This document shows positions 36,799 through 42,516 of a DNA stretch of 64,000 bases, in pieces; the first letter of the stretch is position 1; each line of letters opens with the position of its first letter. Below the pieces are notes generated by a model, which worked only from the letters and a program-made list of their open reading frames with translations, did no database searches and had not been told where the DNA came from. Source of the stretch: Scytolyngbya sp. HA4215-MV1 (lineage in GTDB: Bacteria > Cyanobacteriota > Cyanobacteriia > Leptolyngbyales > Leptolyngbyaceae). The position numbers and the translations under genes were made by a program. The stretch covers positions 62,001-126,000 of the forward strand of contig JAHHIA010000015.1 of NCBI GenBank assembly GCA_019359045.1, given 5' to 3'.

Positions 36799-37299
36799 TC
36801 AGGCAATATCTGGTGGCAGATGTAAGTTTGAACCGAAGCCAGAGGGCTTCTGTGGCTGTGAAGTTGCTTGAATCTGGATTTGTACTAAGTTTTGCAAATC
36901 TTGACGACGAATTTCGGTACCTGTGGCTGTATTGCCAGGCGTCTCGAAGAATATGGTGCTGTCTACCCTCTCCATTGCCAACATCTGAAACAAAATGTGG
37001 GTAACAGGGGTGGGTAGCGCGATGAGTTGCGGATCTTGTAAAGGGCTGGGTCCTATCGTGACGTCTTTTAACGTCGGAAAAGCATAAATAATGTTTTTCT
37101 GAACATCGGGCTGAGTACGATTGCTAAGGGTCGTTAACACCCAGTTCTGATCAAGGGTTTGTAACACATAATACTGAGAGTGGCGTAGTTGTTGGGCGAG
37201 TTGCTTCAGTACGGGCGCGATCGTCCTAACCAGTTGAGGCGTTACATCATCTTGAGGGGCATCATCGATGAGGACTTGAATTTGTTGGTCGAGATTCAT
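36799..37299 (-). CDS. Conserved-looking protein divergent from the hetZ-like gene
   Basis: This 166-residue soluble protein has alternating helix and strand, with IRTIAPVLKQLAQQLRHSQYYVLQT and KNIIYAFPTLKDV segments. There are no cysteines, membrane segments or signal peptide. I do not recognise a named family. It starts 176 bases from the HetZ-like gene in the opposite direction and may share control with it. Codon use and length suggest a real gene. Confidence 0.62.
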   Translation of the reverse strand: MNLDQQIQVLIDDAPQDDVTPQLVRTIAPVLKQLAQQLRHSQYYVLQTLDQNWVLTTLSNRTQPDVQKNIIYAFPTLKDVTIGPSPLQDPQLIALPTPVTHILFQMLAMERVDSTIFFETPGNTATGTEIRRQDLQNLVQIQIQATSQPQKPSGFGSNLHLPPDIA

Positions 37300-37475: not shown

Positions 37476-38618
37476 GTGGAGGCAATCTTTCAGCTCTTAT
37501 TCAGCGAGCTTGAGCTGTCAACAAATGCTTCTGAGCGGAATTGTCGGGATGTCGCTGAACGGTTAGCGAAAGAAGTGTCCCGAATCTGCTTTGAAAGTAA
37601 ACGTATTCAAGCCTCAGGAGAGGTTGAAAGTTGGTCTATTGCTCTTGCTCGTCACCGCCTCAAGCAATGCTTGCACTATTACGAATTAGGATCTCGTCGA
37701 GGTCGTATTGAATTACACAGTACCCTGAGCGCAGTTATTTATCGTTACATTAGTCCAGCTCAGGTGCAATCAAGCTACCAGGCACGATTGACCTTGATTG
37801 AAGATTTTTTGCAAGGGTTTTATATGGAAGCGCTGAATGCGTTCCGTCGGGAAGCGCAGTTACCGCCCACCTATCGCCCGAAAACTTTGCTGGAATTGTC
37901 GGAGTATATGGCGTTTACCGAGCGGTATGGCAAACGTCGAATTCCACTGCCAGGGCACCGGAGCCAGCAGCTCATTATTTTGAGAGCGCAGACGTTTTCG
38001 CAGCAACAACCCCTGGAAACGCTGGTTGACATTGAACGAGCGGCTGAGGGCACCACTCAGGAATCGGATCATGCCTGGGGGGCAGCTTCGATGCAACAGG
38101 TGCGCGAACAGATGGTTGCTCAGGAGCCAGAACCTGCCGAAGATACCCTGCGAAGCAAGGTGATTGCTGAGTTGATTGCTTATTTAGAAGAACGTAAGCA
38201 AAATGACTGTGCGGACTATTTCACTTTGCGCTTGCAAGATTTGCCCGCAAGCGAGATTGAGTCAATTTTGGGACTCACCCCACGGCAACGAGATTATCTT
38301 CAGCAAAGGTTTAAATACCATTTGATTCGCTTTGCGCTGTCTCATCGGTGGGAACTGGTACACCAGTGGTTAGAGGCAGATTTGGAAAGAAATCTGGGGC
38401 TAACTCCACACCAGTGGGAGACTTTTCAAGCACAAATTGAACCCCAACAGGTTAAGCTGCTTGAGTTGAAACAAAAGCGTTTGTCGGATTCTGCGATCGC
38501 CCAATCCCTCGGCTGCTCAGTTACCCAAGTGCAAAAGCAATGGTTCAAACTCTTGGAGCAAGCCTGGAGTATTCGGAATTGTGTAGTATCCGGAGCAAGT
38601 AGATCTGGGGATGAATAG
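37476..38618 (+). CDS. hetZ: HetZ-like regulator with sigma-like helix-turn-helix
   Basis: A 380-residue soluble protein. The N-terminal part is helical, with RHRLKQCLHYYELGSRRGRIELHSTLSAVIYRYI and LLELSEYMAFTERYGKRRIPLPG. The C-terminal third has two sigma-factor-like HTH stretches: ESILGLTPRQRDYLQQRFKY, and SDSAIAQSLGCSVTQVQKQW near 330-355. The match to HetZ, a regulator of heterocyst differentiation in Anabaena that is also conserved in other filamentous cyanobacteria, is from memory and is supported by the PatU-like gene directly downstream. The start is a GTG with GGGGGAG upstream. If non-heterocystous, its role must differ. Confidence 0.65.
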   Translation: MEAIFQLLFSELELSTNASERNCRDVAERLAKEVSRICFESKRIQASGEVESWSIALARHRLKQCLHYYELGSRRGRIELHSTLSAVIYRYISPAQVQSSYQARLTLIEDFLQGFYMEALNAFRREAQLPPTYRPKTLLELSEYMAFTERYGKRRIPLPGHRSQQLIILRAQTFSQQQPLETLVDIERAAEGTTQESDHAWGAASMQQVREQMVAQEPEPAEDTLRSKVIAELIAYLEERKQNDCADYFTLRLQDLPASEIESILGLTPRQRDYLQQRFKYHLIRFALSHRWELVHQWLEADLERNLGLTPHQWETFQAQIEPQQVKLLELKQKRLSDSAIAQSLGCSVTQVQKQWFKLLEQAWSIRNCVVSGASRSGDE

Positions 38619-38629
38619 AGGTTCATATC

Positions 38630-39733
38630 ATGAATGAAGACTCAGACGCAATGCAACAAAGCTTCATCAGGCTCTTACAAGACCTGGCTTTGACGGATGT
38701 ACCCCCAGGTACGGGGCAACCTGCTCCAGCTCAGAATATTGACGGAGTGTATCGAGACGATCCGGCTGTCGCAGCCTGGGATACTCTCGATTCTGAGGAG
38801 TTTGGTGTCTTTGCGAGTCAGATGGGACTGCATAACCTTCCCTTTCAGAGGGAACCACTACTTCAACCGGGAGAATTACCTGCTGTGCAAGACCGTTTTC
38901 ACGCACTGTTGAAGCGTCGATTACAAACCGAAATTCAACGACATCCACCCCTGTTCCCATGGGAAACAGAAATTACTGATTATGAAACCGAAAGCTTGGG
39001 TGTCTTGCAGATGGCTGACATGACTGAGCCTAGCCCTGTGCCCGTTGGAGCCTCGGCAAACCGTCAGCGACCTGTGTGGCTGACTCAGCTACAAAATTTG
39101 AATTTACCTGTCTCTTTACCAGAAACCGTTTTGGTGCAACTGCTAGAGCGTTGTCAAGAAGCGGTACAGTCTTCTTTGCGAGAAGGCGCGAAGTTGGTTC
39201 GGGTAGTCGAGTCACTCTTCCCAGATCAATCTCAAAGTCTGAACCAATTGGCAGGACTGGTGATGGTTTCTCCTGCCAGATCGGGAGGCGCACTAGCCAG
39301 TACCGCTTTCCAGGGATCGGACTTTCCAACGAGTTACGAAGCAGCGGTTCCTGCTCAACAAATGGTGCTTTCATTGTTGGCAGCCCGAGAAATTATCGGC
39401 TCGTTGACGCTGTCTTTGTCGGCAAGTGCCCCAACGCTAGAGCGGCAATGGCTGACTGCCGCTGGCGTGCTCACCTTGCAAGCTGGGTATACCTTTGGAC
39501 AGACTCCAGGACGTCTACAGATTCAGGGTACGCTGCCTTGTGGAGGACGTCTTAGCCTGAAAGCAGGTGAGGCTCATGCTTCTACACAGCGGACATCGCC
39601 AGGTGGCCTGAGTCTTGAGTTATTAGATTTGCCGACTAGCCAGACCTATTCGCTAGAAGTTGAGTTGCAGATTCCAGATCAAAATCCCCTCGTTTTTGCG
39701 ATCGGGTTGGTGGATGAGCCGTCTCTAGCGTAA
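38630..39733 (+). CDS. patU: PatU-like protein downstream of hetZ
   Basis: This 367-residue protein starts 11 bases after the HetZ-like stop, so the pair is surely one operon. The N-terminal half is acidic and probably disordered. A central helical segment has LNLPVSLPETVLVQLLERCQEAV. The C-terminal half is beta-rich (VLTLQAGYTFGQTPGRLQ, SLELLDLPTSQTYSLEVEL). In Anabaena, hetZ is followed by patU, split there into patU5 and patU3; synteny is the main basis for this call. Molecular function is unknown. It ends close to a 500-base gap without genes. Confidence 0.55.
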   Translation: MNEDSDAMQQSFIRLLQDLALTDVPPGTGQPAPAQNIDGVYRDDPAVAAWDTLDSEEFGVFASQMGLHNLPFQREPLLQPGELPAVQDRFHALLKRRLQTEIQRHPPLFPWETEITDYETESLGVLQMADMTEPSPVPVGASANRQRPVWLTQLQNLNLPVSLPETVLVQLLERCQEAVQSSLREGAKLVRVVESLFPDQSQSLNQLAGLVMVSPARSGGALASTAFQGSDFPTSYEAAVPAQQMVLSLLAAREIIGSLTLSLSASAPTLERQWLTAAGVLTLQAGYTFGQTPGRLQIQGTLPCGGRLSLKAGEAHASTQRTSPGGLSLELLDLPTSQTYSLEVELQIPDQNPLVFAIGLVDEPSLA

Positions 39734-40245: not shown

Positions 40246-42516
40246 ATGTCAAAATCCTCCGGAACTCGGCAGTTGCAAAATTCGGATCTTTTAGGGCAAC
40301 TCCGACAGCGGATTGCAGCAATGCCGATACCAGAATCGGAGGATTCCATTCCTTTAAGGGTTTTAACCCAAGCCCTGGTTATTGTGGGGATCGTTGCAAC
40401 CGATATGGTTGCTTCTACCCAAAACAGCTTTTGGGCGATCCCTGCTAGTGTTCTCGGTGCTGTCTGGAGTTGGTATCAACGGCGACAGCGCAATATGCCG
40501 ACCAAGTTTTGTCTGGCGATTGGGATGTTGCTCACGTTGGCAGCATTTTTACTACGGCTGACTGGCGAGCTGAACGATACCCGTCTGGCACTGGCGGAAC
40601 TCCTGATTCAGCTCCAGGTCTTGCATAGCTTTGATCTACCCCGTCGCAAAGATTTGGGCTATTCCATGGTGATCGGGCTAATTTTGTTGGGGGTTGCAGG
40701 AACGCTGAGCCAGACTTTATCGTTTGGGTTATTGTTGCTTTTGTTTTTGGCGATCGCTTTACCTGTTTTGGTGCTCGATTATCGCTCCCGTTTAGGACTA
40801 ATCCCTCGCAATCTCAGGCTCAAAGGTTTGGGAGTTTCACCAAAACAGTTCAGTATATTTTTGCTGGTGATTTTGGCAATGGGGTTGACGATTTTTGCCT
40901 TGCTTCCCCGATTTCCAGGATATCAGCTGCGAACCTTTCCAGTTAGTGCCCCGATCGAACTTCAGGATAAGTTTGACAATCGGCAAATTGTGAATCCGGG
41001 TTATGTCAACCCCGGTGGCACGGGGGCAGGTGGGGGGGGGACTGCGGTTGGGCAAAGGCAGGGCAAAGGAGCCGGAAAGCTAGATGACACGTTCTACTAC
41101 GGGTTCAATAGCCAAATTAATCAAAACTTGCGGGGCAAGCTCAAACCCCAGATTGTTATGCGAGTTCGCTCTCAAGCAGAAGGTTTTTGGCGAGTTCTGG
41201 CATTCGATCACTACACTGGTCAGGGTTGGGAATTTTCTCGGAACGATCAAGCTCAAAATTTGACCCGTTCTCGTTGGAGCTATCAATTTTTCTTACCCAG
41301 ACCCGTCACGCTTAACAAAACTCGTGAAGTGGTTCAGACATACACAGTCGTTGCTGATTTGCCCAATCTGCTCCCAGCCCTGGCGACGGCAAAGGAATTG
41401 TATTACCCCACCCAGGAGGTGGCGATCGATCCGGAAGGGGGACTGCGATCGCCAGTGCAACTGGTAGATGGGTTGACTTACACGGTTGTTTCTGAAGTTC
41501 CCTACCGCAATCGATCGATTCTTCGTACAGCGCCCACCCTTTATTCCGCCTCAATTCGCAAGTTTTATTTATCCGTTCCGCCAGAAATCGCGACAAAGGT
41601 TCGGCAGCAAACTGAGGAAATTTTGGCAAAATCACCGAAACCCATTACTTCACCCTATGAACAGGCATTGTTTCTGACCCAGGTCTTGAAGCAACGGTAT
41701 AGCCTCCAGGAAGAGGTTCCTTTTCTTGCTGACAATGAGGATTTGGTCGAAGCCTTTTTGTTTAAGCAACGAGGAGGGTACGCCGATCATTTTTCAACTG
41801 TTTTGACTATCATGTTGCGTTCGATTGGTATTCCTGCACGGTTGGCGGTGGGTTTTGCCCCAGGCGATTTCAATCCCTTTACTGGGCTGTATGTGGTGCG
41901 TAACACAGATGCCTACGCTCTTACGGAAGTGTACTTTCCTAAATATGGTTGGTTCGCATTTGATCCAATTCCGGGTCATCCCCTCTTTCCACCTTCGATT
42001 GAGGAAGATCAGACCTTCACGGTATTGCGTAAGTTTTGGCAGTGGGTTGCTGGTTGGTTACCCTCCCCAGTGACAAGTGCGCTGGGCAGAGTCATCGATT
42101 TTGTCCTAAGTTGGGCAATTCGGGCGATTGGTGGAATCATTGCCCTGTTCTCTTGGGGATGGATCGGGCTGTTTACCGGCTTGTTGGGGGGGATTGGTTT
42201 TGCGTTTGCATCCTGGCTCAGTTGGCAGGGGTGGCAACAATGGCGACACTATCGCCGCCTAGCAAAATTGCCAGCGATGGAACGTCTTTATCAACAGATG
42301 TTGGAGCGTTTAGTGAGTTGGGGATTTCGCAAACATCCCAGCCAAACGCCTCTAGAGTATGCTCGACAGATGCAGAATCATCAGATTCCAGCCCATGCTG
42401 CCATTATTGATGAAATTTCGCGCGCCTATGTTCGCTGGCGCTATGGTGGCGAGCAACCCCTGGTCGATCGGCTACAAAAACGACTCCAAGAGCTGAAAAA
42501 GCAACCTCATCGCTAA
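40246..42516 (+). CDS. TgpA-like membrane protein with inactive transglutaminase domain
   Basis: A 756-residue protein with DUF3488-like membrane helices (about 45-225), an extracytoplasmic transglutaminase-like domain (about 450-585), one or two membrane segments near 620-665 and a C-terminal DUF4129-like tail with RKHPSQTPLEYARQM. In active relatives the motif is GYCEHF, with His in DAHAWVEV and Asp in DPT. Here these read GYADHF (Ala513), DAYALTEV (Tyr557) and FDPIPG (Asp573). Two of three catalytic residues are therefore missing, and it is probably a binding or structural protein. Confidence 0.88.
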   Translation: MSKSSGTRQLQNSDLLGQLRQRIAAMPIPESEDSIPLRVLTQALVIVGIVATDMVASTQNSFWAIPASVLGAVWSWYQRRQRNMPTKFCLAIGMLLTLAAFLLRLTGELNDTRLALAELLIQLQVLHSFDLPRRKDLGYSMVIGLILLGVAGTLSQTLSFGLLLLLFLAIALPVLVLDYRSRLGLIPRNLRLKGLGVSPKQFSIFLLVILAMGLTIFALLPRFPGYQLRTFPVSAPIELQDKFDNRQIVNPGYVNPGGTGAGGGGTAVGQRQGKGAGKLDDTFYYGFNSQINQNLRGKLKPQIVMRVRSQAEGFWRVLAFDHYTGQGWEFSRNDQAQNLTRSRWSYQFFLPRPVTLNKTREVVQTYTVVADLPNLLPALATAKELYYPTQEVAIDPEGGLRSPVQLVDGLTYTVVSEVPYRNRSILRTAPTLYSASIRKFYLSVPPEIATKVRQQTEEILAKSPKPITSPYEQALFLTQVLKQRYSLQEEVPFLADNEDLVEAFLFKQRGGYADHFSTVLTIMLRSIGIPARLAVGFAPGDFNPFTGLYVVRNTDAYALTEVYFPKYGWFAFDPIPGHPLFPPSIEEDQTFTVLRKFWQWVAGWLPSPVTSALGRVIDFVLSWAIRAIGGIIALFSWGWIGLFTGLLGGIGFAFASWLSWQGWQQWRHYRRLAKLPAMERLYQQMLERLVSWGFRKHPSQTPLEYARQMQNHQIPAHAAIIDEISRAYVRWRYGGEQPLVDRLQKRLQELKKQPHR

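Follow-up and report, generated by a model that had tools for sequence, protein, structure and literature searches.

TgpA of Pseudomonas aeruginosa (PA2873; structures 6g49 and 6g4h) consists of a TgpA_N region followed by a transglutaminase domain with a Cys-His-Asp triad. Passages of PMC3507681 describe an assay of its transglutaminase activity and call it critical for viability. Transglutaminase genes also occur in operons with genes for a MoxR ATPase and a DUF58 protein (in the MoxR proper subfamily and in the bifidobacterial PFNA cluster), as parts of PMC12067865 report; the same source describes MoxR ATPases as chaperone-like proteins that have vWA partners, with DUF58 genes as well in one subfamily. 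Dead transglutaminase folds that are used for binding are already known, in protein 4.2 and in XPC/Rad4. Erythrocyte protein 4.2 (EPB42; 8cs9_X, 7uzs) is an animal protein with a dead transglutaminase fold and a scaffold role. It is described as catalytically inactive, and the transglutaminase-like domain of the DNA repair protein XPC/Rad4 as inactive and kept for binding, in sections of PMC10318531. Searching the open-licence literature, we found nothing on TgpA transglutaminases in cyanobacteria or on MoxR together with DUF58 in cyanobacteria, and among open-licence papers on inactive or pseudoenzyme transglutaminases none was, by its title, about a bacterial TgpA pseudoenzyme.

Here we describe a TgpA gene in a 64,000-nucleotide stretch of the genome of the cyanobacterium Scytolyngbya sp. 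HA4215-MV1 (hereafter the window). Its product has the same domain order and the same periplasmic fold as P. aeruginosa TgpA but lacks the Cys and the His of the triad, and we call it pseudo-TgpA. The genome also encodes the other two kinds of protein known from the MoxR-DUF58-transglutaminase operons, but the cyanobacterial genes lie apart from one another, and the transglutaminase among them is dead. We found neither a clade-wide dead TgpA nor a dispersed, co-inherited MoxR-DUF58-TgpA set of cyanobacteria in the open-licence literature that we searched. Our preferred reading, to which we assign a probability of roughly 0.6, is that pseudo-TgpA is a non-enzymatic periplasmic binding or scaffold subunit of a dispersed, co-inherited MoxR-DUF58-TgpA envelope system in which thiol catalysis was lost once. 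Cyanobacteria then provide a natural experiment in which the chemistry has gone while the protein, its fold and two partner genes have stayed, which bears on whether the core job of MoxR-DUF58-TgpA is catalysis or coupling.

Table 1. Features of the pseudo-TgpA locus (window positions) and partner genes elsewhere in the same genome
Feature	Location	Strand	Remarks
166-aa gene	36799-37299	-	no family hit; divergent from hetZ, conserved with hetZ
hetZ	37476..38618	+	upstream neighbour; NCBIfam heterocyst_HetZ 671.5 bits, cut-off 550
patU-like gene	38630..39733	+	named from its place after hetZ; no family hit
pseudo-TgpA gene	40246..42516	+	open ORF, 756 aa
TgpA_N (PF11992), residues 44-421	40375..41508	+	E 3.3e-22
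Transglut_core (PF01841), residues 466-574	41641..41967	+	E 1.4e-19; best-conserved region
Ala513 codon GCC	41782..41784	+	catalytic Cys position; start of model helix 513-526
Tyr557 codon TAC	41914..41916	+	catalytic His position
Asp573 codon GAT	41962..41964	+	third triad residue, kept
DUF4129 (PF13559), residues 681-748	42286..42489	+	E 5.4e-15
DUF58b gene, 403 aa	contig 11		pseudo-TgpA gene on contig 8
MoxR1 gene, 302 aa	contig 13		pseudo-TgpA gene on contig 8

A TgpA protein without its catalytic cysteine and histidine

The window protein (Table 1) has the domain content of the TgpA family: a TgpA_N match of 79.3 bits is followed by a Transglut_core match of 70.8 bits, both above the curated cut-offs, and its DUF4129 match is likewise above the Pfam cut-off. 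Hydropathy peaks and long helices in the predicted model mark N-terminal membrane helices and a C-terminal membrane segment. Pfam, hydropathy and the model together give the order N-terminal membrane helices, periplasmic pseudo-transglutaminase domain, C-terminal membrane segment and cytoplasmic DUF4129 region, with the words periplasmic and cytoplasmic denoting a putative topology taken by analogy from P. aeruginosa TgpA. A phmmer alignment with the crystal sequence 6g49 puts the catalytic Cys at Ala513, the His at Tyr557 and the Asp at Asp573, and the codons, read directly, encode these residues. The protein therefore has Ala-Tyr-Asp where a transglutaminase enzyme has Cys-His-Asp, exactly the two replacements and one retained residue that the original prediction had called from the DNA sequence alone. 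Its sole Cys, Cys89, lies in a predicted membrane helix. By way of internal control, the other five of the six Transglut_core matches in this genome carry the motif Cys (read by eye).

Modelled with AlphaFold2 together with 73 relatives, the protein had a mean pLDDT of 79.7, and the blocks of the transglutaminase core scored 88-97, with a dip to 79 at residues 541-550. The predicted model aligned to 6g4h in VIA-align with a Z-score of 24.0 (rmsd 3.1, 259 residues aligned, 22% identity), so the TgpA periplasmic fold is kept, again as predicted. Next in the fold list came a putative cysteine protease (Z 13.1), animal transglutaminases (about 10) and human protein 4.2 (9.2), which has no TgpA_N and is a distant relative by fold only; XPC/Rad4 followed at about 7, a level of doubtful meaning, and comes from an unrelated context. 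The Foldseek TM-score to 6g4h was modest (0.65 by target), the query being the whole model. Position 513 starts a helix in the model, the usual seat of a papain-like Cys; a Pro there would suit the geometry and could not act as a nucleophile.

The cysteine is missing from a whole clade

We found a match to the protein in 157 of 386 genomes of the phylum. Removing ORFs under 500 aa and identical sequences from the 243 ORF hits left 210 rows for the alignment, a few of them truncated copies of another row (for example L146 and L148). Cys513 is absent from 168 of them, and the remaining 42 are all Cys-His-Asp. Residue 513 in the 168 is Pro in 134, Glu in 21, Ala in 8, Gly in 2, and Arg, Val and Ile in one each; at residue 557 Tyr is the commonest (109), followed by Gln (22), His (19), Phe (15), Ile (2) and Met (1); and Asp573 has become Asn in 15. 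The idea that the replacements characterize a whole clade was borne out, but the Ala on which it was based is an uncommon form. That Pro is the typical residue went beyond the original prediction, as did the co-inheritance of DUF58 and MoxR genes and the adjoining hetZ and patU-like genes described below. Sequencing or assembly error was rejected as an explanation, since the loss of Cys is common to 168 rows.

Because His557 persists in 19 of the 168 rows and Asp573 has changed to Asn in 15, the loss of Cys is the shared event. We made a quick tree from 107 of the 210 rows, thinned by identity and with the three triad columns left out. Cys changes once on this tree, His 12 times and Asp 6 times, counts that cannot tell loss of His from its regain. 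The branch that sets the group without Cys apart has an SH-aLRT of 99, and the group shares a weakly supported part of the tree (77) with intact TgpA of other classes in the phylum; the long branches of which the tree software warned belong to the distant intact forms, above all L119. The simplest story from these sequences would be that the nucleophile was lost first and the other two positions drifted later. The closest intact relatives are the TgpA proteins of those other classes (L101-L116), with 29-32% identity to the window protein; unlike it, all 16 are Cys-His-Asp. Families f17 and f25 also have Cys-His-Asp TgpA, which clusters with the other intact forms at a weak support of 77.

A domain that has lost Cys513 might still be an enzyme if another Cys, or another kind of residue, had taken over. 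A shifted or alternative Cys, which the original prediction had named as the observation that would count against it, was looked for and rejected: the periplasmic part has none in the window protein and none in 163 of the 168 rows, and of the five exceptions two have theirs near residue 531, the other three in an insertion that precedes residue 510. Catalysis through Ser, Thr or the conserved His515 could appeal to the retention of His515 in 157 of the 168 rows and of Asp573 in 91%. His515 is, however, not specific to the clade, being present in 13 of the 16 intact other-class relatives and in 26 of the 42 Cys-His-Asp rows; residue 517 is Ser in just 114 of the 168; and Trp559, found in all 16 intact other-class relatives, has gone, as have all periplasmic Cys residues in most rows. 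We consider an enzyme of this kind very improbable. Cysteine catalysis would not be expected from the sequences, and the clade-wide replacements together with the kept fold favour the non-enzymatic role that had been proposed.

Several other TgpA genes were met in the survey. Loci L139-L152 and L158 (family f19) and L119 (f10) encode a different TgpA with an intact triad, and no pseudo-TgpA was found in those families; in one of these genomes, G174, a MoxR gene is on the same contig as this intact TgpA gene, about 1 kb away. The intact Cys-His-Asp TgpA genes L117, L118, L120 and L121 (f17 and f25) lie in fetched stretches that have no MoxR or DUF58 gene. We rejected family f26 as a Gloeobacter holder of the Glu/Gln form: the named loci with this form are mostly Pseudanabaena, and there was no named Gloeobacter locus among the 80 loci kept.

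The pseudo-domain is under purifying selection

On average, identity to the window protein is highest in the transglutaminase core (0.694), followed by the N-terminal membrane part (0.642), the other periplasmic regions (0.565) and the C-terminal parts (0.48). Pooled dN/dS, from 40 pairs in which each sequence was used once, is 0.076 for residues 441-600 compared with 0.096, 0.124 and 0.138 elsewhere. The domain that lost its chemistry is the slowest-changing part of the protein. Its low dN/dS led us to reject the possibility that the gene is a pseudogene. A clearly broken copy is present in only 2 of the 116 Cyanobacteriia genomes with a long match (G119 and G383); in G005 there is one stop codon (TAG) in a pseudo-TgpA copy that is split over two contigs.

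What has been lost is the neighbourhood of the active site, namely Cys513, His557 and Trp559. Residues belonging to the fold have remained, and nine of them do not vary at all across 85 rows that include both dead and intact forms: Arg525, Arg532, Gly536, Gly540, Thr546, Gly547, Glu561, Gly568 and Trp569. A further set is fixed in the clade: Q479, K482, Q483, F545, N553, W598 and W600 reach 95% fixation or more in it and vary in the 16 intact other-class relatives. F591 and P608 are likewise fixed in the clade and variable in those 16. The contrast is weakened by the small number of these relatives and by their greater divergence among themselves. F591, W598, W600 and P608 are membrane-adjacent. 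A rival reading is that the pseudo-domain is only a structural spacer, one that serves the folding and stability of the membrane protein and binds nothing itself. The free drift of residue 513 (P/E/A/G/V/I/R) and residue 557 (Y/Q/H/F/M/I), which implies no ligand in the cleft, is what such a spacer would show, but the domain is also the most constrained region of the protein and contains the clade-fixed residues, and we think the spacer unlikely. If pseudo-TgpA is instead a binding or scaffold subunit, as we prefer, then the free variation at 513 and 557 leads us to expect the binding surface outside the old cleft; the variable floor of the former active site argues against use of exactly that cleft, also for the peptide or peptidoglycan binding that the original prediction had offered as a conjecture. 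The nine clade-fixed columns, F591 and P608 included, are candidate sites for this surface.

Pseudo-TgpA is inherited together with DUF58b and MoxR1

Orthologs of all three components occur in the same genome, and they come and go together. An ortholog of DUF58b is present in all 114 genomes whose pseudo-TgpA is not clearly broken, and MoxR1 of at least 66% identity is present in 111 of them. The other 272 of the 386 genomes have neither DUF58b nor MoxR1 intact at ortholog grade, and, G383's broken copy aside, the 114 are exactly the genomes with a DUF58b hit below 1e-80. These genomes are related to one another, so they represent far fewer than 114 independent cases. MoxR1 had no match in G129 and G358 and fell below ortholog grade in G372, all three of them drafts. 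Other imperfections within the 114 are a pseudo-TgpA in pieces on two contigs (G005 and G372), a truncated fused copy (G022), a DUF58b copy interrupted by one TGA, next to another copy that is partial (G019), and a partial MoxR1 of 82% (G153).

The losses follow the same pattern. Both genomes with a clearly broken pseudo-TgpA have stops in DUF58b as well, and MoxR1 is absent from G119 (best E-value 9.5e-4) and broken in G383, whereas three congeners of G119 (G054, G324 and G366) carry all three genes. All three are missing from G145 and G181, and only weak scraps (DUF58 7.5e-7; MoxR 54 aa) are left in G266; the congener G141 has the full set. G051, G231 and G085 have only MoxR paralogues of 46-49% and another type of DUF58, with a weak TgpA match (2.2e-12) in G085, and G157 and G068 have none of the three. 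These cases amount to perhaps five to seven independent losses of the set, a count not placed on a species tree. G383, which we take to be possibly a pseudogene-rich plant symbiont, is by itself weak evidence of joint loss.

The three genes are not neighbours. DUF58b is beside none of 145 pseudo-TgpA loci (not all from different genomes), most of which span about 4-5 kb on each side and some less, and MoxR1 is near just one of them: in L092 (G149) it lies on the same strand at a distance of about 4.6 kb (contig 38, 78735-79634). The arrangement differs in the sister classes, where MoxR and DUF58 genes often accompany the intact TgpA gene: the best MoxR match (53-58% identity) is 1-1.4 kb from it in 8 of 18 genomes (G001, G007, G013, G021, G026, G029, G041 and G044). 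The 18 are those other-class genomes in which the TgpA match is strong; in another three it reaches just 1e-3 to 1e-5. Dispersal is not tied to the loss of catalysis, because MoxR and DUF58 are not next door to the intact TgpA of families f32, f36 and f37 either, which are the top-scoring Cys-His-Asp matches to the window protein.

Another possibility is that pseudo-TgpA serves as a decoy by which a cell regulates an active paralogue of TgpA that it also has. Five genomes (G030, G072, G229, G253 and G326) do have a Cys-His-Asp TgpA beside DUF58 as well, three more (G097, G125 and G155) have a second match, and the window genome encodes five other transglutaminase-fold proteins with Cys. But no second TgpA_N match was reported in the window genome, and only 8 of the 114 genomes, with at most two candidates scored per genome, have a second match other than a fragment of the same gene; with so few, the partner cannot in general be a TgpA paralogue, and we give the decoy very little credence.

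We return to a binding or scaffold subunit as the best account, and propose the following mechanism. Thiol catalysis would have been lost once, in the ancestor of most of the Cyanobacteriia families where the gene was found here, and the pseudo-domain would have been kept since then as a non-catalytic module for binding or scaffolding in the periplasm. The window protein would provide the membrane component of a MoxR-DUF58-TgpA system; the genes for its three components, though dispersed, are inherited and lost together, and their products may form a physical complex. The periplasmic pseudo-domain would contact a partner in the cell envelope, and the cytoplasmic DUF4129 tail would couple this contact to DUF58b and to the AAA+ ATPase MoxR1.

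Three further observations concern these gene families. At loci L123-L127, in five genomes that have the pseudo form, a second, intact TgpA gene (HCEYF type) lies beside DUF58 and MoxR genes, the MoxR gene of L123 being just outside the fetched stretch. The window genome (G000) has a second MoxR-DUF58 pair, of another type, on contig 31 (444645-446694). Its DUF58b (L173-L176, L167) aligns to the DUF58 profile (216 positions) just at positions 2-56, and may be a divergent form.

Pseudo-TgpA adjoins hetZ and a patU-like gene

The genes upstream of pseudo-TgpA in the window recur at other loci: hetZ and the patU-like gene precede pseudo-TgpA on the same strand at 67 of the 145 loci. At 69 of the 145, neither these two genes nor the small divergent gene was found nearby; the upstream sequence is shorter than 3.5 kb at 14 of the 145. 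According to passages of the respective sources, patU sits downstream of hetZ (PMC7377430), and PatU3 limits cell division at the level of septal peptidoglycan synthesis and binds ZipS (PMC12288457). The hetZ-patU neighbourhood suggests a role for pseudo-TgpA in the envelope or in division, and the process served may be one of the envelope or of septal peptidoglycan.

A broader interpretation, which we offer tentatively and hold to be possible rather than probable, is that the MoxR-DUF58-TgpA system is wholly non-catalytic in most cyanobacteria that have it. Cross-linking would then be an optional extra, the core function of TgpA everywhere would be to serve as a receptor or scaffold in the periplasm to which an AAA+ ATPase is coupled, and in filamentous species the gene would have come to adjoin the HetZ-PatU switch that links division and differentiation.

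The 166-aa gene adjoins pseudo-TgpA at five loci where hetZ-patU was not found. In the truncated copy of G022 (L093), residues 1-344 of hetZ are fused in frame to residues 204-752 of pseudo-TgpA, and most of the N-terminal membrane helices are missing.
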